Assembly: GCF_001190945.1 (NCBI RefSeq)
Contig: NZ_CP011112.1
Span: 248,001 to 312,000, forward strand
Reading direction: 5' to 3'
Source: Luteipulveratus mongoliensis
GTDB taxonomy: Bacteria > Actinomycetota > Actinomycetes > Actinomycetales > Dermatophilaceae
Length of the DNA stretch: 64,000 bases
Below, piece after piece: positions 8,291 to 41,569 of the stretch; position 1 is the stretch's first letter; each line of letters begins with the position of its first letter. The translations under genes and the position numbers were made by a program. The notes beneath the pieces are model-generated. The model was not told the DNA's origin. It saw only the letters and a program-made list of their open reading frames with translations, and made no database searches.

Positions 8291-9400
8291 ATGATGACCT
8301 CATCGTCCGCTCACATCCACTACGACGTGGTCTCGGTTCAGGAGGCTGATCCGCTGATCGCGGACTCCCTCCTCGCCGAGCTACCGGCCATGAACGCCGC
8401 CGCCGACACCCGCGAGCTCGCCGAGCTCCTGATAACGCTCAGCGGACGTGCCCGCGCCCTCTGTGCACACCGCCTTCCACCACCCGTCCAAGGTTTGGCC
8501 GTCATGCGCGACCTCGGGATCGTGCTCGGCTCGATCAAGCGGCACGGCACCGAACCCCTGGACGTGGTGCCCGAGCTCACACCGCTGCTGCTGGCGCTCG
8601 GCCGGCAGACGGACCTGGTCCCGCGTGACACGGTCCAGCACTACACGTCCTGGAACCCACCAGGCGCGCGAAGACGCACCTACACCGATGACGAGCAGGA
8701 GACTTGGCTGCAGGACTCGGTGTCCCACGTGTTCCCCGACCTCAGCGCATCCCTCTCGATCAGCGAGACCCTGGTCGACCTCGACCCACGCGACACCCGA
8801 TTCGCCGCGAACGCGCGACTACTGGCCCGGACCGTCCACTCGATGCTCGAGGCGATCGACTCGGTCACCGCTCGAGTCTCTCCGATCTTCTTCGCCCAGG
8901 AGATGCGGCCCTACTTCGAGGAGATCACGGTCGACGGCACGGAGTACCTCGGCCCGGCCGCTGCCCAGGTCCCCCTCTGGCTGGTCGACCTGTGCCTGTG
9001 GGCCTCGGACCGCAATGCCGACGCGTATGGCTCGTTCCTCTCGGAATCCCTGCAGTACGCCCTGCCGGACTGGCGTGACTTCCACGGCCGCCACCACCAC
9101 CGACCGTCGCTGGTGACGAGGTTGAGCAACCTCATGATGGCCGACCCGCGGCGGACCTCGCCGGCCCTGATCGAGAGCGCGAAAGCGGTCGGTGACCTCC
9201 TTCGTACGCTCAAGACCTTCCGTGGGCGGCACATCACCATCGCCAAGAAGGCGTACGCCGAAGATGTCCGCCTCTACGAGAACGGCAGCGGCGGAGCACC
9301 CATCGCGCTGCTGCAGGAGATTCTCGACCTGACGCGGGAGAACGAGAACCTCATCCGGTCGCGGCACCGGCCGGCACCTCGAGCGGCAGGAGCAGCGTGA
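8291..9400 (+). CDS. PrnB-like heme-dependent enzyme (DUF1864/IDO-TDO superfamily)
   Basis: A 369-aa soluble protein matching the length and layout of PrnB (about 361 aa), the monodechloroaminopyrrolnitrin synthase that rearranges 7-chlorotryptophan. The segment RHITIAKKAYAEDVRLYENG places a His at residue 314 (313 if the second ATG at 8294 is used), where the proximal heme ligand of PrnB lies as I recall it. Other family-like stretches are DFHGRHHHRPSL and PLDVVPELTPLLLALG. GGAGGAG precedes tandem ATGs at 8291/8294; the second has better spacing. The superfamily (IDO, TDO, PrnB) binds indole or aromatic amino-acid substrates at heme. The stop overlaps the next ATG (TGATG). Confidence 0.78.
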   Translation: MMTSSSAHIHYDVVSVQEADPLIADSLLAELPAMNAAADTRELAELLITLSGRARALCAHRLPPPVQGLAVMRDLGIVLGSIKRHGTEPLDVVPELTPLLLALGRQTDLVPRDTVQHYTSWNPPGARRRTYTDDEQETWLQDSVSHVFPDLSASLSISETLVDLDPRDTRFAANARLLARTVHSMLEAIDSVTARVSPIFFAQEMRPYFEEITVDGTEYLGPAAAQVPLWLVDLCLWASDRNADAYGSFLSESLQYALPDWRDFHGRHHHRPSLVTRLSNLMMADPRRTSPALIESAKAVGDLLRTLKTFRGRHITIAKKAYAEDVRLYENGSGGAPIALLQEILDLTRENENLIRSRHRPAPRAAGAA

Positions 9401-10677
9401 TGTCACGCATCGTCATCGCAGGCGGCGGAATCGCCGGGCTCTGCACCGCGCTGGCGCTCCATGCGACCGGCCACCGCGACATCACCGTCCTGGAGCGCGC
9501 CCGATCGGTCGAGCCGCTCGGGTCCGGGATCAACGTCATGCCGCAAGCCGTCCGCGAGCTGGATCGGCTGGGCCTGCTGGACGACCTGCGGGCGATCTCC
9601 GTCGAGACCACCGAGCTGGTGTACGCGACAGCCGGCGGCGAGGAGATCTGGCGGGAGCCGCGTGGTCGCCGCGCAGGGTTCCGTTGGCCGCAGCTGTCCA
9701 TCCACCGGGGCTGGCTCCAGATGTGCCTCGCGCGGCACGTTGCCGAGCGGCTCGGACCGGACACCATCGTGACGAGCTCTCATGTCCTGGCCGAGCCGGG
9801 CGGGCTCGAGGCCGGTGTCGTGCGGTACGAGGACCGCAGCATCCGCTCCATCCGCAGTCTCCCCGCCGATCTGCTGATCGGTGCCGACGGCATCCGGTCC
9901 GAGGTCCGGCAGGCGGTCGCTCCGGAGGACCCCGGGCCGCGGCCCAACCCACAGGTGGTGTGGCGCGGGATGGCCTGGGGTGAGTCCTTCCTGGACGGCA
10001 GCTCGATGGTGATCGCGGGCGACGGCACCCGCAAGGTCGTGTTCTATCCGATCGCCCACAAGAACGGTCGCGCGCTGATCAACTGGGCGGCAGCCGAGCC
10101 CATGGTGTCGGAGACCGAGGGCGGCAACTGGAACATGCCGGCCCGCCCGAAGGCCTTCGCTCCCGGGTTCGAGGGGTGGCAGGTCGAGGGCGTCGACATT
10201 GCCGAGCTGATGCTCGCCAGCGACGACTGCTTCGCCTACCCGATGGTCGATCTCGACCCGCTCGACCACTGGAGCATCGGGCGGACCACCCTCGTTGGTG
10301 ATGCCGCGCACGCGATGTATCCCGTCGGGTCCAACGGTGCGACGCAGTCGATCATCGACGGGGCCGCACTGGCCCACCACCTCGCCGCCCACCACACGCT
10401 CGATGAAGGCCTGGCGGCGTACGAGCTGGATCGCCGCACGGCCACTCGCCCGATCCAGGCCGCCAACCGAGCCCAGGGGCCAGAGGTCGTCGTCGACCTG
10501 GCCGCTGCACGGGTTCCAAGCCAGTTCACTACTGTCGCAGAGGCATTCGAGGACGGCGAGCTGGCGGCTATCGCCAGCCGCTACGCGCGTACGACGTCCT
10601 TGGACCAGGCCAACACCGACAGTCCCTACCCGGCACCGACGACGGCTGCCCGGTTGTTCGAACGGAGTCATGCATGA
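9400..10677 (+). CDS. FAD-dependent aromatic monooxygenase
   Basis: A 425-aa class A flavoprotein hydroxylase of the salicylate/3-hydroxybenzoate 6-hydroxylase type. It shows the GxGxxG dinucleotide motif (VIAGGGIAGLCTALAL), the DG motif (LLIGADGIRSEVRQA) and the GD motif (TLVGDAAHAMYPVGSNG). These enzymes use NAD(P)H and O2 to hydroxylate electron-rich aromatics. ATG 9400 overlaps the stop of the PrnB-like gene by one base, and its own stop overlaps the next gene's ATG by four bases, so translation is coupled. It probably hydroxylates an aromatic intermediate of the pathway. Confidence 0.92.
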   Translation: MSRIVIAGGGIAGLCTALALHATGHRDITVLERARSVEPLGSGINVMPQAVRELDRLGLLDDLRAISVETTELVYATAGGEEIWREPRGRRAGFRWPQLSIHRGWLQMCLARHVAERLGPDTIVTSSHVLAEPGGLEAGVVRYEDRSIRSIRSLPADLLIGADGIRSEVRQAVAPEDPGPRPNPQVVWRGMAWGESFLDGSSMVIAGDGTRKVVFYPIAHKNGRALINWAAAEPMVSETEGGNWNMPARPKAFAPGFEGWQVEGVDIAELMLASDDCFAYPMVDLDPLDHWSIGRTTLVGDAAHAMYPVGSNGATQSIIDGAALAHHLAAHHTLDEGLAAYELDRRTATRPIQAANRAQGPEVVVDLAAARVPSQFTTVAEAFEDGELAAIASRYARTTSLDQANTDSPYPAPTTAARLFERSHA

Positions 10678-12143
10678 CCAGGAACGGGCAGGAATACCTC
10701 GAGGCATTGCAGGACGGACGCACCGTGTGGCTGGGGCGCGAGCGCGTCGACGACGTGACCACACACCCGGCGTTCGCCCAGGCGGCACGCTCGTTCGCGC
10801 GGCTGTACGACCTCACCAACGATCCTGAGCACCGCGACGACCTCACCGTTTCCTCGCCGAGCGGACGGACACTGCGGGCGTACGACGTGCCGAAGTCGTA
10901 CGACGACCTGGTCGCCAAGCGTGAGGCGCACCGCGTGTGGGCTGCGGACAGCTTTGGCTTCCTGGGGCGTTCGCCCGACTACATGGCGGCCGGTGCGGCG
11001 GGCTTCCTGGCGCGGCCTCAGGTGTTCACCACGGACACCTATGACGGCGCCGACAACGTCCGGGCGCTGCACCAGCGGTGGAGTCGCGACAGCATCTTCC
11101 CGGCATTCACGATCACCAACCCGGCGAGTGACCGCTCCAAAACCCTTGGTGAGCAAGAGGTTCCGGACCTGTTCCTGTCAGTCGACCAGGAGCGCGACGA
11201 CGGCATCGTGGTGTCGGGCAGCAAGATGATCGGCACGGCTGCGGTGTTCGCCGACGAGATCATGGTCGGCACGATCGAGCCGCTGGGGCCCGACGACCAG
11301 GACTTCGCGTTCAGCTTTGCGCTGTCCCCGTCGACGCCCGGCGTCAGCCTGATCTCCCGGATGTCCTACGAGGCGCAGGCCGCGTCCGGCAAGGATTACC
11401 CGCTGTCGTCCCGGTTCGACGAGAACGACGCGCTCCTCGTGTGTGAGTCGGTGTTCGTCCCGTGGGAGCGGGTCCTCACCTATCGCAACGTCGAGTCGAC
11501 GTTCGGGATGTGGTGGCAGACACCGGCGTACACCTATATGGCACACCAGGCTTCGACGCGGTTCTGGACCAAGATGGAGTTCCTGGCCGGCGTTGCGGTG
11601 CTGGTCACGCGCGCCAACGGCTCAGCCGAGAACCCTGCGGTGCGGTCCGAGGTCGGCCGGCTGCTCGGCTACGTCCAGATGGCCAAGTCGATGGTGCTCG
11701 CCTCGGAGGCGGCGCTCGATGCCCAGCCCGAGGACGGTGGCGCCGTACGCCCGGACGCCGCGATCACGTACGCCCAGCGCATCCTGGCCGGCGAGATCTA
11801 TCCCAAGTTCGTCCACCAGATCAAGATGTTCAGCGGCGGCAGCCTCACCCAGGTGCCGGCGTCCTGGCACGACCTGCACGACGCGACCGTCGGCCCGCTG
11901 CTCAAGACGTACGCCCGGTCGGTCACCCAGGACACCGAGGACCGGGTCGCGCTGATGAAGCTCGCGTGGGACGCCGTCGGGTCCGAGTTCGCTTCGCGTC
12001 ACGCGCATTACGAGCAGTTCTACCAAGGCGCGCCGCACGTCTACCTGACCCAGATGGCGTTCGCGGGAGGCGCCGACGAGTGCGCGGACCTCGCCGGGCG
12101 AGCCTTGAGTGAGGCTGCCGGGATCGACAGCCCGAAAACATGA
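10674..12143 (+). CDS. HpaB-type FADH2-dependent hydroxylase (4-hydroxyphenylacetate 3-monooxygenase family)
   Basis: A 489-aa protein with the acyl-CoA-dehydrogenase-like fold of HpaB/PvcC/HsaA-type group D monooxygenases. The N-terminal segment (MTRNGQEYLEALQDGRTVW) is the family signature. Central parts (GIVVSGSKMIGTAAVFADE, FVPWERVLTYRN) and the C-terminus (GGSLTQVPASWHDL) also match. Such enzymes need reduced flavin from a separate reductase (HpaC type), and none is encoded in the operon. ATGA overlaps at both ends place it firmly in the operon. It likely performs a second hydroxylation on a phenol or phenol-like intermediate. Confidence 0.9.
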   Translation: MTRNGQEYLEALQDGRTVWLGRERVDDVTTHPAFAQAARSFARLYDLTNDPEHRDDLTVSSPSGRTLRAYDVPKSYDDLVAKREAHRVWAADSFGFLGRSPDYMAAGAAGFLARPQVFTTDTYDGADNVRALHQRWSRDSIFPAFTITNPASDRSKTLGEQEVPDLFLSVDQERDDGIVVSGSKMIGTAAVFADEIMVGTIEPLGPDDQDFAFSFALSPSTPGVSLISRMSYEAQAASGKDYPLSSRFDENDALLVCESVFVPWERVLTYRNVESTFGMWWQTPAYTYMAHQASTRFWTKMEFLAGVAVLVTRANGSAENPAVRSEVGRLLGYVQMAKSMVLASEAALDAQPEDGGAVRPDAAITYAQRILAGEIYPKFVHQIKMFSGGSLTQVPASWHDLHDATVGPLLKTYARSVTQDTEDRVALMKLAWDAVGSEFASRHAHYEQFYQGAPHVYLTQMAFAGGADECADLAGRALSEAAGIDSPKT

Positions 12144-13528
12144 CCGACACGGTGGCGAGCACCACGGTGGACGCCGGGACCACCACGCGGTGGTTCCTGG
12201 CGCTCACCCAGTTCTTGCTGATCCTGGACACCGCGCTGCTCAACGTCGCGGTCCCGGCGATCGGCACCGACCTCGGGCTCGGCGCCACCGGTCAGACCTG
12301 GGTGCTCAACGCGTACGTCGTCGCGTTCGGCGGTCTGCTCCTGCTCAGCGGGTGTCTGGCCGACGCTCGCGGCCCCGGCCGGGTGCTCATCGCCGGCCTC
12401 CTCGTTCTCGCCCTCGGCGCAGCCGTGGGTGCAGTGGGACAGACCGGCGCCATCGTGATCGCCAGCCGTGCGGCGCAGGGGGCCGGCGCGGCTTTGGCGG
12501 CAGCATCGGCGATGGCGCTGGTCTTCTCCCGCTTCACGGGTCCGGCGCGTGGTCGTGCCTTGGGTCTCGTCGCCGCGATGGCGGGCTTGGGTGGCGCGGT
12601 GGGGACCGTGCTCGGCGGCGTGCTGACTGAGTGGATCAGCTGGCGAGCGACGTTCTGGCTCAACGTGATCGCGGCTCTTGCGCTCGCCATCGCCGCGCGC
12701 TGGGTGCCCGATCTCTTCGGCCGCGGGCGTCCTCGTACGTTCAACGCTGTCGGAGCCGCCTGCATGACTCTTGCGCTGGCAGCGACGGCGTACGCCGTGA
12801 CGTCGACTGCCGACGTGGGCTGGCTCTCGCCTCAGGTCCTCACCTCGGCCGCGGTCGCGGTCGTCGCGCTGCTCGCGTGGTTGAGGTCCGAACGGCGTCC
12901 GATGAGACCGCCGCTCGTCAACCCGATCGTCTGGCGTACGCCGGCGCTGCTGCGGGCGCTCGTGCTCGCGGGCATCGGGCAGTGGGTGCTCGTGCCGGCC
13001 TTCCTGGTGATCAGCCTCTACCTGCAGCACGTGCTCGGTTACGAGCCCGCGGCCGCGGGCCTGGGTCTGCTGCCGATGTCGGTGGCGATCTGCTTCATCG
13101 CACCGCAGGTGCCTCGCGCGATGGCGCGATGGGGTCTGCGGATGGTCATGGTCGGTGGGTTCATCCTGGTCGCGCTGGGGGCGACCTGGCTGACCCAGAT
13201 CTCCGCGGACGGCTCGTTCTTCGTCTCCGTCCTCGGTCCGACGATGCTGCTCGCGCTCGGGCTGCCGACGGTGTCGATCGCGACCAACATCGCGGTGGCG
13301 GAGACGACGCCCGCGGACGAGCCCGGGCTCGGGTCCGGGCTGCTGACGACGGCTCAGCAGCTCGGCGCGACGCTCGGGCTCGCGGCGTGGGTGTCGATCT
13401 CGGCCGCCGGGTCGCCGACGGGTGCGGTCGATGTCACCCAGGGCTACGCGCGGGCCTTCGCGGCCGGCGCGGTGGCGATGGTCGCGGCGGCGGTGCTCGC
13501 GTCGCGAACCTCCCGGCTCTCGCAGTAG
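12140..13528 (+). CDS. MFS transporter, DHA2 family (14 TM)
   Basis: A 462-aa drug:H+ antiporter of the EmrB/QacA type. It starts MTDTVASTTVDAGTTTRW and shows the TM1 motif LILDTALLNVAVPAIGTDL and the motif-C-like MAGLGGAVGTVLGGVLTEW. About 14 hydrophobic segments follow. It is translationally coupled (ATGA) to the HpaB-type gene and closes the operon. In this context it most likely exports the product of the cluster and confers self-resistance. A long hairpin follows the stop. Confidence 0.92.
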   Translation: MTDTVASTTVDAGTTTRWFLALTQFLLILDTALLNVAVPAIGTDLGLGATGQTWVLNAYVVAFGGLLLLSGCLADARGPGRVLIAGLLVLALGAAVGAVGQTGAIVIASRAAQGAGAALAAASAMALVFSRFTGPARGRALGLVAAMAGLGGAVGTVLGGVLTEWISWRATFWLNVIAALALAIAARWVPDLFGRGRPRTFNAVGAACMTLALAATAYAVTSTADVGWLSPQVLTSAAVAVVALLAWLRSERRPMRPPLVNPIVWRTPALLRALVLAGIGQWVLVPAFLVISLYLQHVLGYEPAAAGLGLLPMSVAICFIAPQVPRAMARWGLRMVMVGGFILVALGATWLTQISADGSFFVSVLGPTMLLALGLPTVSIATNIAVAETTPADEPGLGSGLLTTAQQLGATLGLAAWVSISAAGSPTGAVDVTQGYARAFAAGAVAMVAAAVLASRTSRLSQ

Positions 13529-29717: not shown

Positions 29718-29831
29718 CATCACCCCGCCCACGAACGCCCGCAAGCGAACGAGAATGCCCGTATCAGAAGGGTGTTCGGCAGGCTCCTTTCAGTATCGGC
29801 AAGGGCACTGAGCCCGGCCCCGCAGACGTGG

Positions 29832-30902: not shown

Positions 30903-31090
30903 GAGAAGCAAGCCTAGGGTGCGGTCTCGGATACCTGCGCGGACGGCTGGCCTGCGAAATCGGGAGGCCGCGTCCGGCGTACCGGCGTAAATTCGTTGAA
31001 CTCAGTTGTATCAACGGCGCGACGACCTGCTCCTGTGCGGATGAGAGGCTCCGACCGGGGTCTCGTCGTCGAGGCCGGGAGGAGGTCAGC

Positions 31091-31693
31091 GTGACCATTG
31101 AAAAGACGTCCACGGCTCCACCGGGGGAGAGTGTGTGGACTCAAGCGGCCGGCTGCTTCCGACGGTGGAGCAATGGGGATGCTCAAGGTCTCGACGAGAT
31201 GGTGCGGGTGCTGAGCCCGGTGCTGTGGCAGGTCGTTCGCGCGTACGGGCTTGACCGTGACCGCGCTGAAGACGTCGTCCAGAGCACCTGGCTCGCGCTC
31301 GTACGCCGACGTGACTCGATCAATGACGCGCAGGCAGTGGGTTCCTGGCTCACGACAACGGCCCGCCGCGAGGCATGGCGCGTGTCGCGACTCGAGGGAC
31401 GCACCGAGCCGGTGAGCGACGACGTCATCGAGCTGCGGGCGCCCGAGCTGCGATCGGCCGAGTCCGAAGCCATCGCCCACGACGAGGGCGACCGCCTCTG
31501 GGCCGGCGTCTCGCAGCTGTCCGAACGATGCCAGCGGCTGCTGCGTGTCATCGCTTTCTCCGACCGACCCGACTACTCCGGACTTGCCTTGGAGCTGGGC
31601 ATGCCCGTAGGCAGCATCGGCCCGACCCGAGGCCGATGCCTGGACAAGCTGAGGACCCTCCTCGCCGAACCGACCGATAGGGGCCCCCAATGA
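31091..31693 (+). CDS. Sigma-70 family factor (ECF-like) of the protease module
   Basis: A 200-aa sigma factor. Region 2 (GLDRDRAEDVVQSTWLALVR) recognises -10 DNA and region 4 (LSERCQRLLRVIAFSDRPDY onwards to RGRCLDKLRTLL) the -35. No SnoaL domain or extra C-terminal extension is present. GGGAGGAGG precedes GTG 31091. Its stop overlaps the next gene (ATGA), and that gene plus the S8 and CHAT genes follow on the same strand. This order is a recurring actinobacterial unit in which the sigma factor is the regulatory end of a protease system; the trigger is unknown. Confidence 0.9.
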   Translation: MTIEKTSTAPPGESVWTQAAGCFRRWSNGDAQGLDEMVRVLSPVLWQVVRAYGLDRDRAEDVVQSTWLALVRRRDSINDAQAVGSWLTTTARREAWRVSRLEGRTEPVSDDVIELRAPELRSAESEAIAHDEGDRLWAGVSQLSERCQRLLRVIAFSDRPDYSGLALELGMPVGSIGPTRGRCLDKLRTLLAEPTDRGPQ

Positions 31694-32163
31694 AGCCTGA
31701 CGTGACGTACGCCGACCTCGCCACGATGTGGTCGGCCCACGACCCGATGCCGGACAGGCTCGTCGACAAGGTGCTGGTCTCCGTGGCCATGGAGGACATG
31801 GACGCCGAGTACGAGCTCCTACACCTCGTCGAACGCAGCCGCGAGCTGGTCGGTACCCGGCGCGACAACGACGAGACGCTGACGATCGTGTTCTCGGGAA
31901 GCACCTGCTCGCTGATGATGCGCGTGAGCTCACTCGATGCGTCGATGCGTCGGGTGGACGGTTGGGTGTCACCGCCGCGCTGCGTGCGCGTGACGGTCAA
32001 GCATCAGGACTCCGAGGTGTCCACCGAGTCCGACTCCAAGGGCCGCTTCGAGATCGACCGCGTGCACGGGGGGCTGTGCCGCATGATCGTCAACGATCTT
32101 GCGCCGGATTCCGGCGACGACAACACCCAAAACCTTTTCGCCACACCATCGTTCGAACTCTGA
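31690..32163 (+). CDS. Partner protein of the sigma factor with beta-sandwich-like C-terminus
   Basis: A 157-aa soluble protein. The first 45 residues are helical and acidic (TYADLATMWSAHDPMPDRLV). The rest looks like a carboxypeptidase-regulatory-type beta sandwich (PPRCVRVTVKHQDSEVSTES, DSKGRFEIDRVHGG). No membrane segment exists. The four-base overlap with the sigma gene suggests a direct functional link, for example as a modulator or anti-sigma-like partner. That role is an inference from position, as the sequence has no zinc anti-sigma motif. Confidence 0.72.
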   Translation: MKPDVTYADLATMWSAHDPMPDRLVDKVLVSVAMEDMDAEYELLHLVERSRELVGTRRDNDETLTIVFSGSTCSLMMRVSSLDASMRRVDGWVSPPRCVRVTVKHQDSEVSTESDSKGRFEIDRVHGGLCRMIVNDLAPDSGDDNTQNLFATPSFEL

Positions 32164-32236: not shown

Positions 32237-33961
32237 GTGACCGAGTCCAACACGCCCAATCTGATCGTTCCGCCGAAGCGGCACGATCATGACCCTGACC
32301 TTCCGTCACGGAAGGTCATGGGCGATGCGGATGGTCGCATCCTCGATCCCCGTAACGCAGCGTCGGTGGCGGGTGTCAGTCCGCGTTCAACGGCCTACGT
32401 CGGACACCGGCTGACCATCTCGCTGCAGACGGATCGGGACAAGGTCATGCCGATCCTGGAGGAAGCCGCCGACCAGCTCGGGTGGGAGCTCGCTGAGGAC
32501 ACGCCGGGCGATGGCCGGGGACGCGCGAAGAAGGCGCGACAGACGGCGTACCTCCACGACGAGAGCGGCCCGCTCGGCGTGGCAACGGTCTCGATCGGAG
32601 TCAAGAAGGGCACTGTCGCGCAGACGCCGGACGGCTGGACGCTGCTGCAACGCGCACGCGCCAACCACTCCCTCGAGGACCTGGCCGGCGTCGCGCTGGA
32701 CCACGTCCTGGTGGCCAGCCACTCCGAGACGCCGACCGCGATGCGAATCACTCCCAACCCGGTCGGACGGGGCAACCCCGTAGGGCGGGGCAACCCCGTA
32801 GGACGCGGCAACCCCGTAGGGCGGGGCAACCCGGTCGGACGCGGCAACCCCGTCGGACGCGGCAACCCCGTAGGACGCGGCAACCCCGTAGGGCGGGGCA
32901 ACCCAGCCGATGAGGCGGCCACCAGCTACGCCGTCGCGTCGTACGGGCTGGCCGGCAGCGGCGGGCGCCAGCCGGTTGCGTTCCTTGGCCCGGCTCCGCA
33001 TCGACGTGCTGATCGGGACATCAAGGGCAGGCGCCCGGTCGTCGCGATTCTGGACACAGGCTGTGGCTCGCACCCCTGGCTCGACGGAATCGTCAAGACC
33101 GAAGTCAGGCTGGACGGCAAACCGATCGGCGACATCGACGCCGCAACGGACGGCGAGCGGAATCCCGATCAGACCGGACCGCTCGACGGTGGGCTCGATG
33201 ACCTGGCGGGTCACGGCACGTTCATCGCCGGTCTGGTCCACCAGGCGTGCCCGGACGCCGACATCGTCTCGTGGCGACTCATCAGCTCGGCCGGCGTCAT
33301 CGTGGAGTCGACCTGGCTGACCGCGCTGACGCAGATCGCTGAGCTGGCCCGACGCCATGCTTCCGGAGAGCCCGGGGGCCATCCGATCGACGTCCTCAAC
33401 CTGTCCTTCGGCTACTACCACGAGACCCCCGAGGACCTTCTGTTCGACTCGACGTTGCAGAAGATCCTGGATGTCCTGTCCTCCAGCGGCACGACGGTCG
33501 TGTGCTCAGTCGGCAACGACGCCACCGCTCGACCGTTCTATCCGGCCGCCCTCGCACCACACGATGGTGGGCTCAACGCGACACGCAAGAAGCTGCCCAT
33601 CGTCTCGGTCGGGGCGCTCAACCCGGACAACACGACGGTCGCCCTGTTCAGCAATAGCGGCAGCTGGGTGCGGACGTACGCTCCGGGGGCTTCCGTGATG
33701 AGCACGACGCCACCGTTCCAAGGTGGGCTCGAGCCCATCGCGCGGACGTCCGCTGAGGGCGAGGAGCGTGCCTCGATCGACCCCGACGACTTCACCAGCG
33801 GCTTCGCGCTGTGGAGCGGGACGTCTTTCGCCGCGCCCTACGTCGCCGGCCGGATCGCTCAGGTCCTGGCCAAGGATCTGCCTCCCAAGGCCGACGATGC
33901 GCGCAGCGCAGTTCGACGGGGTTGGAGGGCAGTCCGCGAAGTCACCGGCATCACGCCATGA
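32237..33961 (+). CDS. Cytoplasmic subtilisin-like S8 peptidase with NPVGRG repeats
   Basis: A 574-aa protease without signal peptide or membrane helix. Residues 1-170 form an N-terminal domain with an alpha/beta pattern (AYVGHRLTISLQTDRDKVMP...) that may be inhibitory or regulatory. Residues 174-221 are eight exact NPVGRG hexapeptides. The S8 domain follows with Asp273 (VAILDTGCG), His326 (GHGTFIAGL) and Ser530 (GTSFAAPYVAG), so the triad is intact. GGGGAGAGCTGTG marks GTG 32237. The CHAT gene starts 7 nt after its stop. The enzyme presumably acts inside the cell, perhaps on the CHAT protein or the sigma-factor partner. Confidence 0.93.
   Translation: MTESNTPNLIVPPKRHDHDPDLPSRKVMGDADGRILDPRNAASVAGVSPRSTAYVGHRLTISLQTDRDKVMPILEEAADQLGWELAEDTPGDGRGRAKKARQTAYLHDESGPLGVATVSIGVKKGTVAQTPDGWTLLQRARANHSLEDLAGVALDHVLVASHSETPTAMRITPNPVGRGNPVGRGNPVGRGNPVGRGNPVGRGNPVGRGNPVGRGNPVGRGNPADEAATSYAVASYGLAGSGGRQPVAFLGPAPHRRADRDIKGRRPVVAILDTGCGSHPWLDGIVKTEVRLDGKPIGDIDAATDGERNPDQTGPLDGGLDDLAGHGTFIAGLVHQACPDADIVSWRLISSAGVIVESTWLTALTQIAELARRHASGEPGGHPIDVLNLSFGYYHETPEDLLFDSTLQKILDVLSSSGTTVVCSVGNDATARPFYPAALAPHDGGLNATRKKLPIVSVGALNPDNTTVALFSNSGSWVRTYAPGASVMSTTPPFQGGLEPIARTSAEGEERASIDPDDFTSGFALWSGTSFAAPYVAGRIAQVLAKDLPPKADDARSAVRRGWRAVREVTGITP
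32756..32899 (+). repeat. Eight tandem 18-bp repeats inside the S8 gene
   Basis: The unit encodes Asn-Pro-Val-Gly-Arg-Gly and is present eight times without any amino-acid change. Synonymous differences (CCG/CCC, GTC/GTA, GGA/GGG, CGG/CGC) remain in the codons. The array forms a 48-residue linker between the N-terminal and catalytic domains. Confidence 0.97.
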
Positions 33962-33968
33962 TTGGTGG

Positions 33969-36467
33969 GTGCTGACTGCCTCGGAGCTGCATGAGCGTGG
34001 CCTGACCCAGAGTCGGGCGGGCCGCCATGCCCAGGCGCGCCGCACGCTCAGCGTTGCGCTGTCGCGGGCTAATGACAACGCGACGATCGCGCACATCGAG
34101 CTGAGTCTGGCGTGGGCTGAGTCCGAGCTCGGCACGGTCCAGGACGGCATCGATCTGTGCGAGCACGCACTCCAGCTGACCGGTGTGCCTGATCCGATTG
34201 TCGGTCTGATCTGGTCCCAGAAGGGGCTCCTGCACTCGTTGGCCGGCAACGGGTCAGCCGCGCTGGAGTCGTTTGCGACGGCTTCGCCGCTCCTCGACCT
34301 GCAGGAGCACGAGGCGATCGGCAACCTTCATCTCAATCGCGGTCTCGTCTACTTGCAGCGCGGCCAGGGAACCGCCGCGAGTGACGAGTTCGAGCGCGCC
34401 CTTGAACAGTTCGAACGAGCCGAGCTCTCGGAGGCGTGCGACAAGGCACGCCACAACCTCGGGTACGCCCGACTCGTCGCTGGCGACGTAGCCCGAGCCG
34501 TCAGCCTCATGGAGGAGGCGCGGACCGGGATGGATTCGCTCGGCCCTGTCTACGAGGCCGTCAGCGCACAGGACAGATCAGAAGCACTCATCGCGGCTGG
34601 TCTGCCCCACCAGGCGGCCGACAGCCTCCGCGAGGCCAGCGGAGTCCTCGGTCGCCGGGGGCTCCGTCAGAGCCAGGCCGAGGCGCTGCTCGTGCTCGCT
34701 CGGCTCAACATCGGCAACGACGAGCCGCGCGAGGCCCGCAAGATCGCTCGTCGGGCGGCGCGCTTGTTCAGCAACCGCGGTAGCGATGCCTGGGCGACTC
34801 GCGCTCAGGCCGTCGCGCTCTCGGCCGAGGTGGCCGCCGGCGTACGACGTCCTGCGCTGCTCGAGGAGGCGACCGACATCGCGGGCCGGCTGCGCGAGCA
34901 GGGTCTGGTTCACGACGCTTCGGCCGTGCTGCTGCAGTCGGCCCGGATGGCCGTACGCACGGGAGACCTGGCGGAGGCGCGGCGTCGCGTGCGCGGCGTA
35001 CGACAGCGTGCTGACGCTCCCCTCGAGAACCGGCTGCTGCAGCACGAGGTACGGGCCGAGCTGTCCCTCGCCGGGCGGCGGCGCGCGGACGCCATGCAGC
35101 ACGTACGCGATGGGCTGGCCGAGCTGCACGACTGGCAGTCGTCGTTCGGGAGCCTCGACCTGCAGAGCTCCGTCGTCGGTCACGGTCGCACGCTCGCGCA
35201 GGCCGGCCTTCGGCTCGCTGTCGAGGACGGGCACCCCGGGGTCGTGCTCGAGTGGACCGAACGCGCTCGTGCACTGACGACTCGCGTCGCTCCAGTGCGA
35301 CCGCCGGACAACCCCGAAGGTGTGGAGCAGCTGCAGGAGCTGCGCGAGATCCACGCGGCCATCCGGGCGGCAGACACCGCTGGCGACAGTGTCACCGGGC
35401 TCGTGCGCAAGTCGTCACGCCTGCAGCAGCAGATCCGCGAAAGAGCTTGGCACGACCCAGGATCCGGCCTTGTCACCGAACCGGCCACCCTCGACACGCT
35501 GATGGCTCAGCTGGCGATCCACGACGGTGTGATGCTCGTCCACCTCGTCACGCACAGCGGGCAGCTGCGACTCCTGGTCGCCACCGGAGACGAGGCGCGC
35601 CTCGTCGATCTCGGCCGTTTCGAACCTGTGAAGCGCATCCTCCAAGGCCTGCAGGCCGACCTCGACATGTCTGCCGCGCACCTGCCCGCCCAGCTGCGCG
35701 AAGTCGTCCATGCCAGCCTGGCCGATCGTCTCGCCACGCTCTCCGATCATCTGATCGCGCCGGCCGCGGACCTGATCGCCGACCGGCCCGTGCTCGTTGT
35801 GCCGACAGGCGGTCTCGCCGGGACGCCCTGGACCCTTCTCCCGGATCTCGCCGGCCATCCGCTCACGATGCCGCGATCAGCGTCGCTCTGGCTCACGCAT
35901 CAGGAAGCTGGCGAAAAGCCCCCGGGCACAGCGGCTTTCGTCGCCGGACCGCGCGTGGCACGTGCTGACGAGGAGGTACGCCGGTCGGCTGCAGCCTGGG
36001 GTCGTGGCGCGTCTGTGCTCGCCGGGTCGGCGGCGACCGCGGAGAAGGTCAGCGCCGGCGCGGCGCAGGCCGACGTCTTGCACGTCGCCGCACACGGGCG
36101 TCACTCGGCGGACAACCCCCTGTTCTCCGGTCTGGAGCTGGCCGACGGACCGTGGTTCGGCTACGACATCGACCGGCTCGCCTCGGTGCCGCGCACCGTC
36201 GTCCTCTCGTCATGTGAGCTGGGCCGCTCCACGGTTCGATGGGGTGAGGAAGCGATCGGCATGACCGTCGCCTGGCTGCATGCCGGCGCAGAGACCGTCA
36301 TCGCCGCTCCCGCGAGCGTCGATGACGACGTCGCCTGCGAAGTCCTGGCCGGGACGCACGCGAGGTTGGCGGCCGGCCGGCTCCCGTCGTACGCCCTGGC
36401 TGAGGCGACCGCGGAGCTGGACCTCGACGTACCCAGCTCGTTCATGTGCTTCGGCGCCGGCTGGTAG
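33969..36467 (+). CDS. TPR-CHAT protease (caspase-like)
   Basis: An 832-aa protein. Residues 1 to about 500 are helical TPR-like repeats (for example ELHERGLTQSRAGRHAQARR and NLHLNRGLVYLQRGQGTAAS). The C-terminal CHAT domain (about 540-832) has the catalytic dyad His709 in HVAAHGRH and Cys749 in VVLSSCELGRS, and the usual start VLVVPTGGLAGTPWTLLPDL. CHAT is the caspase-HetF-TPR peptidase family linked to regulated proteolysis and cell-death-type defence. I used GTG 33969, 7 nt after the S8 stop; the frame is open further upstream inside the S8 gene. Intact catalytic residues argue for an active enzyme. Confidence 0.92.
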   Translation: MLTASELHERGLTQSRAGRHAQARRTLSVALSRANDNATIAHIELSLAWAESELGTVQDGIDLCEHALQLTGVPDPIVGLIWSQKGLLHSLAGNGSAALESFATASPLLDLQEHEAIGNLHLNRGLVYLQRGQGTAASDEFERALEQFERAELSEACDKARHNLGYARLVAGDVARAVSLMEEARTGMDSLGPVYEAVSAQDRSEALIAAGLPHQAADSLREASGVLGRRGLRQSQAEALLVLARLNIGNDEPREARKIARRAARLFSNRGSDAWATRAQAVALSAEVAAGVRRPALLEEATDIAGRLREQGLVHDASAVLLQSARMAVRTGDLAEARRRVRGVRQRADAPLENRLLQHEVRAELSLAGRRRADAMQHVRDGLAELHDWQSSFGSLDLQSSVVGHGRTLAQAGLRLAVEDGHPGVVLEWTERARALTTRVAPVRPPDNPEGVEQLQELREIHAAIRAADTAGDSVTGLVRKSSRLQQQIRERAWHDPGSGLVTEPATLDTLMAQLAIHDGVMLVHLVTHSGQLRLLVATGDEARLVDLGRFEPVKRILQGLQADLDMSAAHLPAQLREVVHASLADRLATLSDHLIAPAADLIADRPVLVVPTGGLAGTPWTLLPDLAGHPLTMPRSASLWLTHQEAGEKPPGTAAFVAGPRVARADEEVRRSAAAWGRGASVLAGSAATAEKVSAGAAQADVLHVAAHGRHSADNPLFSGLELADGPWFGYDIDRLASVPRTVVLSSCELGRSTVRWGEEAIGMTVAWLHAGAETVIAAPASVDDDVACEVLAGTHARLAAGRLPSYALAEATAELDLDVPSSFMCFGAGW

Positions 36468-36651
36468 GTCGCTCAGACCTCGATCTCAATATGTGAGACG
36501 GGCGAATGGGGGCGTATCACCGGTGAATCGGGCCGCTCTTCCCTCATGTCAGCTGATGACAGCGTGACACCTCGGCCTACCGGCGCCGCCTAGCGCCTGG
36601 CTCGAGGGAAGGCGGCCCACGGTTGGGGGACTTTCGGCCGCCGATGCATGA

Positions 36652-39455: not shown

Positions 39456-39611
39456 GCTGAGCGATCCTGTCAGGTCACATCGTTGTCACGTGGGCCTTCG
39501 CCATTCCCCGTGATCGCCCCGGTCGCGATCGCGGTATCACGGTGCGCCGCGTCGCCCTCCTAGTTGTGTCGGCCCCCGCACCGGAGACCGCCGGGACGAG
39601 GGAGCAGGACC

Positions 39612-40736
39612 ATGGCCAAAGAGCAGATCAACATTGCGGCCGTACAGGCGGCCGTCGCCGACACCGATGGCGCTGACTGGGAGGCCGGCGAGAATCACCT
39701 CACCGCGTTGACCGCCAAGCAGCGCCGCATCCGCCTCGGCGTGCCGGTACCCGACGACAGCCATCGCGCCGCCCTCGAGCGGCGAGCAGCAGGCGTGCGT
39801 GCAGCAGGCCCACAAACCCTTGACGCCGGGCCGGCCGCGGATGCCGGAGCGGCCGCGTCGTTCGACCTCCGCAACGTCTCGGGACAGAGCTATGTCAGTG
39901 GGATCCGCGACCAGGGGTCGTGCGGTTCGTGCGTGTCCTTCGGGAGCGTGGCCGTCATGGAAGGCACGGCACGGTACGCCCGCAGGATGCCTGCGCTCGC
40001 GGTCGACCTGTCGGAGGCGCACCTGTTCTACGGACACGGCGGCACCGTCGGCGTCACCTGCCTCACCGGTTGGCTGCCCCTCCCCGCGCTGACGTTCTGC
40101 ACGACCAAGGGAATCACCTACGAGACCGAGTTCCCTTACACACCAGGCAATTCCGGTGGCGGATCTGCTCCGTCTGGTTGGGAGAGCCACCGCGCTCGCG
40201 CGACCGGGACCGCCGACCTGACCAACAAGATCGCCGCGATCAAGCAACATCTGGTCGATGTCGGTCCGGTCACCGGCTGCTTCATCGTCTACACCGACTT
40301 CTACAGCTACTCCGCCGGCGTCTACAAGCACGTGACCGGAGCGGAAGAGGGCGGCCACTGCGTCGCCATCGTCGGGTACGACGACGCCAAGCGTGCGTGG
40401 ATCATCAAGAACAGCTGGGGAACCGGTTGGGGCATGGGCGGATTCGGCTACATCGGATACGGCGAGTGCCTCATCGACACCTGGTCCAACATCGGCGTCA
40501 CCGGAGTCCGGCTGCGCACGTGGACCGCTGCGAAGAAGGTGCTCGGTGGCTACGGCTCGGGCTACGACCGCAGCGGCTGGGTCTACGTCCAGGACAACGG
40601 CTGGCTGCACGTCGGAGGTACGACGAGCACGGCCCACGTCGCGATGTTCGCCGACCTGCTGACTGCCAAGGGAAAGGGCGCCTTCGTCAACGCCTACGAG
40701 GACGAAGGCCTCATCACCCAGGCCTACGCGTACTGA
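39612..40736 (+). CDS. Papain-like (C1) cysteine peptidase, no signal peptide
   Basis: A 374-aa enzyme. Residues 1-80 form a short pro-region (IAAVQAAVADTDGADWEAGE... RRIRLGVPVPDD). The C1A catalytic domain follows with Cys107 in QGSCGSCVSF, His249 in GGHCVAIVGYD and Asn267 in IKNSWGTGWG, so the triad is intact. Residues about 305-374 are an extra C-terminal domain beyond the papain fold. I used ATG 39612 (GAGCAGG upstream). No export signal is visible, so it should be intracellular. It is followed by a small gene with a similar C-terminal domain and by a chagasin-like inhibitor gene, making a three-gene unit. Confidence 0.93.
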   Translation: MAKEQINIAAVQAAVADTDGADWEAGENHLTALTAKQRRIRLGVPVPDDSHRAALERRAAGVRAAGPQTLDAGPAADAGAAASFDLRNVSGQSYVSGIRDQGSCGSCVSFGSVAVMEGTARYARRMPALAVDLSEAHLFYGHGGTVGVTCLTGWLPLPALTFCTTKGITYETEFPYTPGNSGGGSAPSGWESHRARATGTADLTNKIAAIKQHLVDVGPVTGCFIVYTDFYSYSAGVYKHVTGAEEGGHCVAIVGYDDAKRAWIIKNSWGTGWGMGGFGYIGYGECLIDTWSNIGVTGVRLRTWTAAKKVLGGYGSGYDRSGWVYVQDNGWLHVGGTTSTAHVAMFADLLTAKGKGAFVNAYEDEGLITQAYAY

Positions 40737-40761
40737 CCGCACGAGACTCAAGGAGAACGTC

Positions 40762-41232
40762 ATGCCCACCAAGACCACACGCACCCGCAAGGCCGCCCCA
40801 AAGGCGAGTATCCCTCGTACGGCCGCCTACTCGGCCCCCACGACGGAAGTCGCGCCCGATCCACACCCGCTCAGTGACGCCGAGCTCCAGCTGATGGCCG
40901 GCGATGCGTCGACGGCCGACGCAGCGGCTGATGACGCGTACGCGCCCGAGCCCACGATGCAGCCGCCTGGCACCGCGGTAGCGGCCGGCTACACCGCGGC
41001 GACCGCGGCGGCGGCGATCACGGGCCAGAAGGTCACCGCCCTCTGGGCCGAGCAGACGAACCGCAACGCTCAGATCCACCTGCAGACCGCGGGCTGGAAG
41101 AAGCTCGGTCGCCAAACCGATTCCGGCTCAACGGTATTGACGCTGCTCGCTGCTCACGCTCAGTCGTCGGGGATCGCTCCGGTCGCCCAAGAGGACCCTC
41201 CGGGCTCGATCATGTCGATGTACGTCTGGTGA
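40762..41232 (+). CDS. Peptidase-linked small protein sharing the peptidase's C-terminal domain
   Basis: A 156-aa protein, 25 bp after the cysteine peptidase; AAGGAGAA precedes ATG. Residues 1-80 are basic, then Ala/Pro-rich and probably disordered. Residues about 85-156 align with the C-terminal extension of the peptidase: KV-x-W/Y..., then QTAGW against QDNGW, then an LLAAHAQSSG against LLTAKGKGAF region, and both end in an aromatic pair. Identity is low (roughly a quarter by eye), so the relation is likely but unproven. No known family. It could be a substrate, targeting factor or decoy subunit of the peptidase. Confidence 0.7.
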   Translation: MPTKTTRTRKAAPKASIPRTAAYSAPTTEVAPDPHPLSDAELQLMAGDASTADAAADDAYAPEPTMQPPGTAVAAGYTAATAAAAITGQKVTALWAEQTNRNAQIHLQTAGWKKLGRQTDSGSTVLTLLAAHAQSSGIAPVAQEDPPGSIMSMYVW

Positions 41233-41245
41233 CCGAGACACCCTC

Positions 41246-41569
41246 ATGCATCACGTCATGGAGTCCCCCAGGCCCGGTCAGCAGATCGACTTGTCGGTCG
41301 AGGACAGCCTCGAGATCCGGCTGAGTCATCCCAGCGGCACGGGCTATCGATGGAGCGCGGACCGGGTCCCCTCGTGCGTCGTCCTGCGCCGGGCCGACGC
41401 CGAGCTCGGGCCGACCAAGAGCCCCGTGCGAACCCCTGGTCAGGCACGCACCAGTGTCATCGAGCTGATGGCCACCGAACCGGGGGACGGCGAGCTGCGG
41501 CTGGCGCTCGGCCGTCCCTGGGAGTCCGAACCGGCGGAGGTTGTCGACCTCATGCTCACCGTGCGCTGA
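41246..41569 (+). CDS. Chagasin-type inhibitor of C1 peptidases (I42)
   Basis: A 107-aa beta-rich protein. It shows the inhibitory loops of chagasin: L2 as HPSGTGYRW (usually NPTTGY), and L6 as GRPW. The remaining strands (ISLEIRL-type and RTSVIELMA) also fit. I42 proteins block papain-like C1 enzymes tightly. It lies 13 bp downstream of the small partner and shares the operon with a C1 peptidase, so self-protection is the obvious role. It lacks a signal peptide, in line with the cytoplasmic peptidase. An in-frame ATG at 41258 is an alternative start. Confidence 0.82.
   Translation: MHHVMESPRPGQQIDLSVEDSLEIRLSHPSGTGYRWSADRVPSCVVLRRADAELGPTKSPVRTPGQARTSVIELMATEPGDGELRLALGRPWESEPAEVVDLMLTVR

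Follow-up and report, generated by a model that had tools for sequence, protein, structure and literature searches.

A leaderless papain-family peptidase, a tail-sharing partner and a chagasin-family inhibitor encoded side by side in Luteipulveratus mongoliensis: a possible guarded protease unit

The encoding of a cysteine protease together with its inhibitor is already known in principle in bacteria. Staphopain and staphostatin (sspB-sspC), and likewise SpeB and Spi, pair a protease of papain-like fold with an adjacently encoded cytoplasmic inhibitor, as does the gene set described here, and the zymogen of staphopain B is matured by another protease. In contrast to this set, the staphopains and SpeB carry signal peptides and are secreted, their inhibitors do not belong to family I42, and no partner shares a tail with the protease. 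Procathepsin B and the chagasin-cathepsin B complexes (3cbj, 3cbk) resemble our peptidase and inhibitor in the C1A zymogen fold (Z 30) and in an I42 protein acting on that fold, but they are eukaryotic and lysosomal, have neither an OB tail nor a partner, and are not gene-linked. A bacterial chagasin-like inhibitor has been described in Cip1 of Pseudomonas syringae, which is secreted and directed at a plant protease, and whose target, unlike that proposed below, is not encoded beside the Cip1 gene (PMC5014320). Csx29, a CRISPR-bound TPR-CHAT protease, occurs in a system linked to an ECF sigma factor; our locus likewise has a TPR-CHAT protease and an ECF sigma factor nearby, whereas the Csx29 system contains no papain and no chagasin (PMC10028731).

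We analysed 64,000 nucleotides of L. mongoliensis (contig NZ_CP011112.1, positions 248,001 to 312,000), hereafter the window, in which an earlier note had read a papain-like peptidase, an unknown protein and a chagasin-type inhibitor as one operon, suggestive of a toxin/antidote-like system or of controlled proteolysis. The set consists of the following features.

39534..39561, + strand: promoter-like motif GTATC-N19-TCCT, 78 bp before the start codon of the peptidase gene
39612..40736, + strand: C1A papain-family peptidase (C1), a predicted leaderless zymogen of 374 aa with a Pfam Peptidase_C1 match; prodomain at about residues 1-79, catalytic domain at about 80-300, OB tail at 301-374
40512..40733, + strand: C-terminal OB-fold tail of C1, homologous to the tail of P
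40762..41232, + strand: partner P, 156 aa, with a disordered N-terminus followed by an OB tail; no Pfam match
40951..40968, + strand: P-x-L/M-x-P-P motif (PTMQPP) in the disordered part of P
41008..41229, + strand: OB-fold tail of P, from alignment to the C1 tail, the structure model and a fold search
41246..41569, + strand: chagasin-family inhibitor (I42), 107 aa, leaderless, with a Pfam Inhibitor_I42 match and the family loops

The three genes of the window share one strand, the gaps between them are 25 bp (C1-P) and 13 bp (P-I42), and no terminator-like site was found between them on the plus strand, so that co-transcription is likely here. As a general trait of the set, however, the single operon does not hold, because I42 is convergent in 14 loci elsewhere. 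The peptidase matches Peptidase_C1 (E=4.4e-36) with the catalytic C107, H249 and N267 in place, and the inhibitor matches Inhibitor_I42 (E=1.7e-11) with the GTGYxW and RPW loops of the chagasin family (GTGYRW and GRPWE in the window), which bears out the earlier identification of both. The same is true of the proposed lack of signal peptides, since a search for hydrophobic N-terminal segments in C1, P and I42 found none that is strongly hydrophobic.

The C1 start at 39612 is backed by conservation and by the promoter-like motif ending at 39561. The structure model of C1 (pLDDT 91, pTM 0.91) matches procathepsin B including its prodomain (Z 30 over 269 residues), in line with the C1A assignment from Pfam and the Cys/His/Asn residues, and C1 is therefore predicted to be a procathepsin-B-like zymogen without a signal peptide. 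A zymogen with a prodomain, together with an inhibitor, fits the idea of controlled proteolysis, although that idea had missed the relationship of the third gene to the peptidase. The residue after the catalytic Cys in the window C1 is Val and not Trp. Among the C1s sampled, those with an adjacent I42 read CGSCV, with Ser or Thr after the Cys in a few Pseudonocardiaceae, and those of the CGSCW type have no I42 nearby. The second C1 of genome G000 (L045; G000:C1:1126923-1127504) reads GQVGSCV and has no I42 nearby.

The middle protein, taken as unknown, indeed has no match in Pfam, NCBIfam or PADLOC, but its 70 C-terminal residues can be aligned with those of C1. When 42 tails were placed in a tree, the P tails (22) and the C1 tails (20) each formed one clade (support 97/99). 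Because this branch splits all P tails from all C1 tails, the two predicted OB folds are, on sequence comparison, products of one ancient duplication followed by joint inheritance. Pairwise distances among C1 tails and among P tails are correlated (r=0.86). For the C1 catalytic domain the correlation is lower, both with P (0.74) and with I42 (0.55), and all of these values partly reflect common descent. In its model, P has the OB fold behind a mostly disordered N-terminus, in which the P-x-L/M-x-P-P motif recurs; it is present in 24 of 30 P proteins, and 1.07 would be expected from shuffled sequences. These tail data make a C1-P complex moderately probable. A resemblance of the LSDAELQLMAG helix of P to a RiPP leader finds no support in the shared tail.

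The set is rare but recurrent. Eight of 98 related genomes have P (one weakly, with stops), which lies beside I42 in seven; C1 is whole in six of these relatives (G000, G002, G036, G051, G081 and G090) and truncated in G001. When 84,980 species genomes were scanned, 80 C1 loci emerged. With a tail profile, 38 loci (six from the related genomes and 32 found by scanning, with L035 and L064 being one and the same contig) proved to carry this domain. In nearly all of them it ends both C1 and P, and where P was found in these loci it lies downstream of C1 on the same strand. They belong to Actinomycetota, Bacteroidota (Niabella), Cyanobacteriota (Elainella), Thermodesulfobacteriota and an archaeon (Methanosaeta); a further set on the Deinococcus plasmid pDAETH-2, beyond the 38, brings the total to five bacterial phyla and one archaeon. 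Across the whole phylum, the tail was detected in 1 of 396 genomes, an undercount since only 15 candidates per genome were scored. The conservation of the neighbourhood, on which the first reading depended, is thus supported, and because the arrangement recurs in distant genomes it is beyond chance. A search of the openly searchable literature, with subscription papers outside it, found no published description of a C1-P-I42 cassette. Together, rarity and joint retention across phyla suggest a guarded-protease system without earlier description. At L067 (Niabella), a second, tail-less C1 precedes the set and an ECF sigma factor follows it (9070-9846 and 12132-12740).

The inhibitor is tied to the tailed peptidases in particular. 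I42 is adjacent in 34 of 38 tailed loci (within about 2 kb; co-directional in 20, convergent in 14, absent from 4) compared with 10 of 48 tail-less C1 loci (p=1.7e-10, one duplicate contig removed). In addition, in three genomes in which the catalytic Cys of the peptidase has become Ser (L059, L072 and L087), I42 is absent from the entire genome; these are close relatives, and the change perhaps reflects one or two events. Because I42 is linked to the tailed peptidases and is missing from the genomes whose peptidase has no catalytic Cys, it is very likely the cognate guard of the linked C1, as judged from sequence. Joint loss of CHAT and I42 was also considered for these three genomes, which keep the sigma factor and regulator and have no adjacent CHAT, and was dropped, as CHAT homologues (52-53%) occur elsewhere in them. 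At L066, I42 is absent from a genome with an active-looking peptidase. Beyond the tailed set there is a wider class of C1-I42 pairs: L039 (8214-10498), L082, L084, L091 and L117 encode tail-less, leaderless C1s with C-terminal FG-GAP/DUF346 propellers and I42 immediately downstream. At L083 (11158-11514; Malikia), the gene between C1 and I42 differs and encodes an unrelated small protein starting MSGCGCKCG. Genome G000 has a second I42 (L044, 7634-8104; G000:C1), which is lipoprotein-like and has no C1 beside it.

Upstream of the set, the window contains a second module.

31008..31034, + strand: promoter-like motif GTATC-N18-TCCT, upstream of the sigma gene
31091..31693, + strand: ECF-type sigma factor (Sigma70_r2)
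31690..32163, + strand: 157-aa regulator-like protein of the sigma module, with a weak CarboxypepD_reg resemblance
32237..33961, + strand: S8 subtilase (E=7.4e-22) belonging to the sigma/CHAT module and also conserved in G001 and G002
33969..36467, + strand: TPR-CHAT (caspase-like) protease (CHAT E=2.6e-25); GTG start inferred from sequence
36514..36540, + strand: promoter-like motif, second copy, 47 bp beyond the stop codon of CHAT

Between the CHAT gene and C1-P-I42 lie two unrelated genes on the opposite strand. In the window, as in Pseudonocardiaceae, the sigma/regulator/CHAT module adjoins the set: L073, L074 and L075 have the order C1-P-I42-sigma-regulator-CHAT, CHAT is also beside the set in G001, G002 and G036, and in the last (G036/L032) it is directly upstream of C1. 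On pDAETH-2, two caspases follow the set. The motif GTATC-N18/19-TC[CT], a putative promoter, stands ahead of C1 in 12 of 39 loci. Its distance from the ATG is 61-78 bp in the window, in L030-L033 and in six loci of Pseudonocardiaceae (11 in total), and 95 bp in L063. The motif also precedes the sigma genes of the window, L073 and L074, and the window has three sites against 0.27 expected. The sigma factor/CHAT module is the probable switch of the unit in the window and certain other actinobacteria. The site after CHAT, kept in G001 and G002 with no obvious plus-strand gene downstream, may be left over from an earlier CHAT-C1 arrangement. A further site at 29761 was rejected as a promoter, as no gene reads from it. 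Most loci (in Streptomyces, Kribbella, Amycolatopsis and others) have neither module nor motif, and for this reason the module is an add-on and not an obligate part of the set; among the neighbours tested in these three genera, no consistent partner beyond the cassette was found.

The reading that we prefer, to which we give an even chance as a whole, is that of a guarded intracellular protease unit. C1 would be synthesised in the cytoplasm as a zymogen resembling procathepsin B, with its short prodomain over the active site, and the co-encoded I42 would block enzyme that matures prematurely. P most likely would bind the C1 tail through the shared OB tail, or form a mixed oligomer with it, leaving the disordered N-terminus with its proline motif free to recruit substrate, to lie in the cleft or to be cut. 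The unit would be turned on by the sigma factor/CHAT module where this is present, and maturation of the zymogen may fall to a clan CD protease (CHAT, or a caspase in Deinococcus). When there is more active protease than inhibitor, cellular targets would be cleaved, in regulated proteolysis or in suicide. It is the sigma, CHAT and caspase links that lead us to favour such an internal role.

Alternatively, C1 may be an exported effector that leaves the cell by lysis or a signal-free route, with its tail (together with P) binding a target surface and cytoplasmic I42 providing immunity. The nearest solved folds of the tail are compatible with this, as B subunits of secreted toxins, which are pentameric, are among them (Foldseek E 6e-4), and so are the C-terminal beta-propellers, some of them perhaps lectin-like, of tail-less relatives that have I42 next to them. 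Immunity would also fit G001, in which the peptidase has lost its prodomain and N-terminus, with the remainder out of frame from the ATG, and the promoter motif, the ATG, P and I42 are intact. However, OB folds are common, and similarity to the predicted tail fold extends to SilF and to the pro-protein-glutaminase prodomain (Z 8-11 for these and AB5 B subunits, in fold only); by sequence, neither P nor the tail has a match in the PDB. P and C1 do not have the strongly hydrophobic N-terminus of a secreted B subunit, and no secretion genes were seen adjoining the set. OB-fold likeness alone shows no function, and there are no grounds on the models to name P a toxin. As the sigma/CHAT and caspase linkage points instead to an internal stress circuit, we regard export as unlikely.

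Still less probable, in our view, is a toxin-antitoxin or abortive-infection system, in which I42 would be a labile antidote and C1 would kill the host upon inhibitor decay or a phage trigger. The patchy spread across phyla, including a plasmid, and the retained inhibitor of G001 would agree with it, but C1, P and I42 match none of the curated PADLOC defence models (CHAT has only a weak match to BovA, E 0.005), and the set has no match in phage records. Moreover, the lability of I42 is an assumption, L066 lacks I42, and 14 loci have it on the opposite strand. A viral origin of the set was likewise rejected, because, besides the lack of a phage record, 43 viral contigs carry only C1s whose matches end at or before residue 312. 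Cleavage of P itself, by C1 or by CHAT or a caspase between the disordered N-terminus and the OB tail to release a signalling fragment, is very improbable, since P, although it follows C1 in tailed loci and has a disordered N-terminus with a conserved PxLxPP motif, persists beside the catalytically dead C1 of L059 and L072, and a proline-rich motif is a poor cleavage site for papain.

To our knowledge, the endogenous targets of bacterial chagasin inhibitors are mostly not known. Under the guarded-unit reading, the probable target of a bacterial chagasin is encoded next door to it, and a small protein family without a database name, represented by P, is tied to the same peptidase by a shared domain. 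If the link to CHAT and caspases is true, bacteria would have a papain-type enzyme acting downstream of caspase-like proteases, a caspase-to-cathepsin cascade that we consider doubtful at present.
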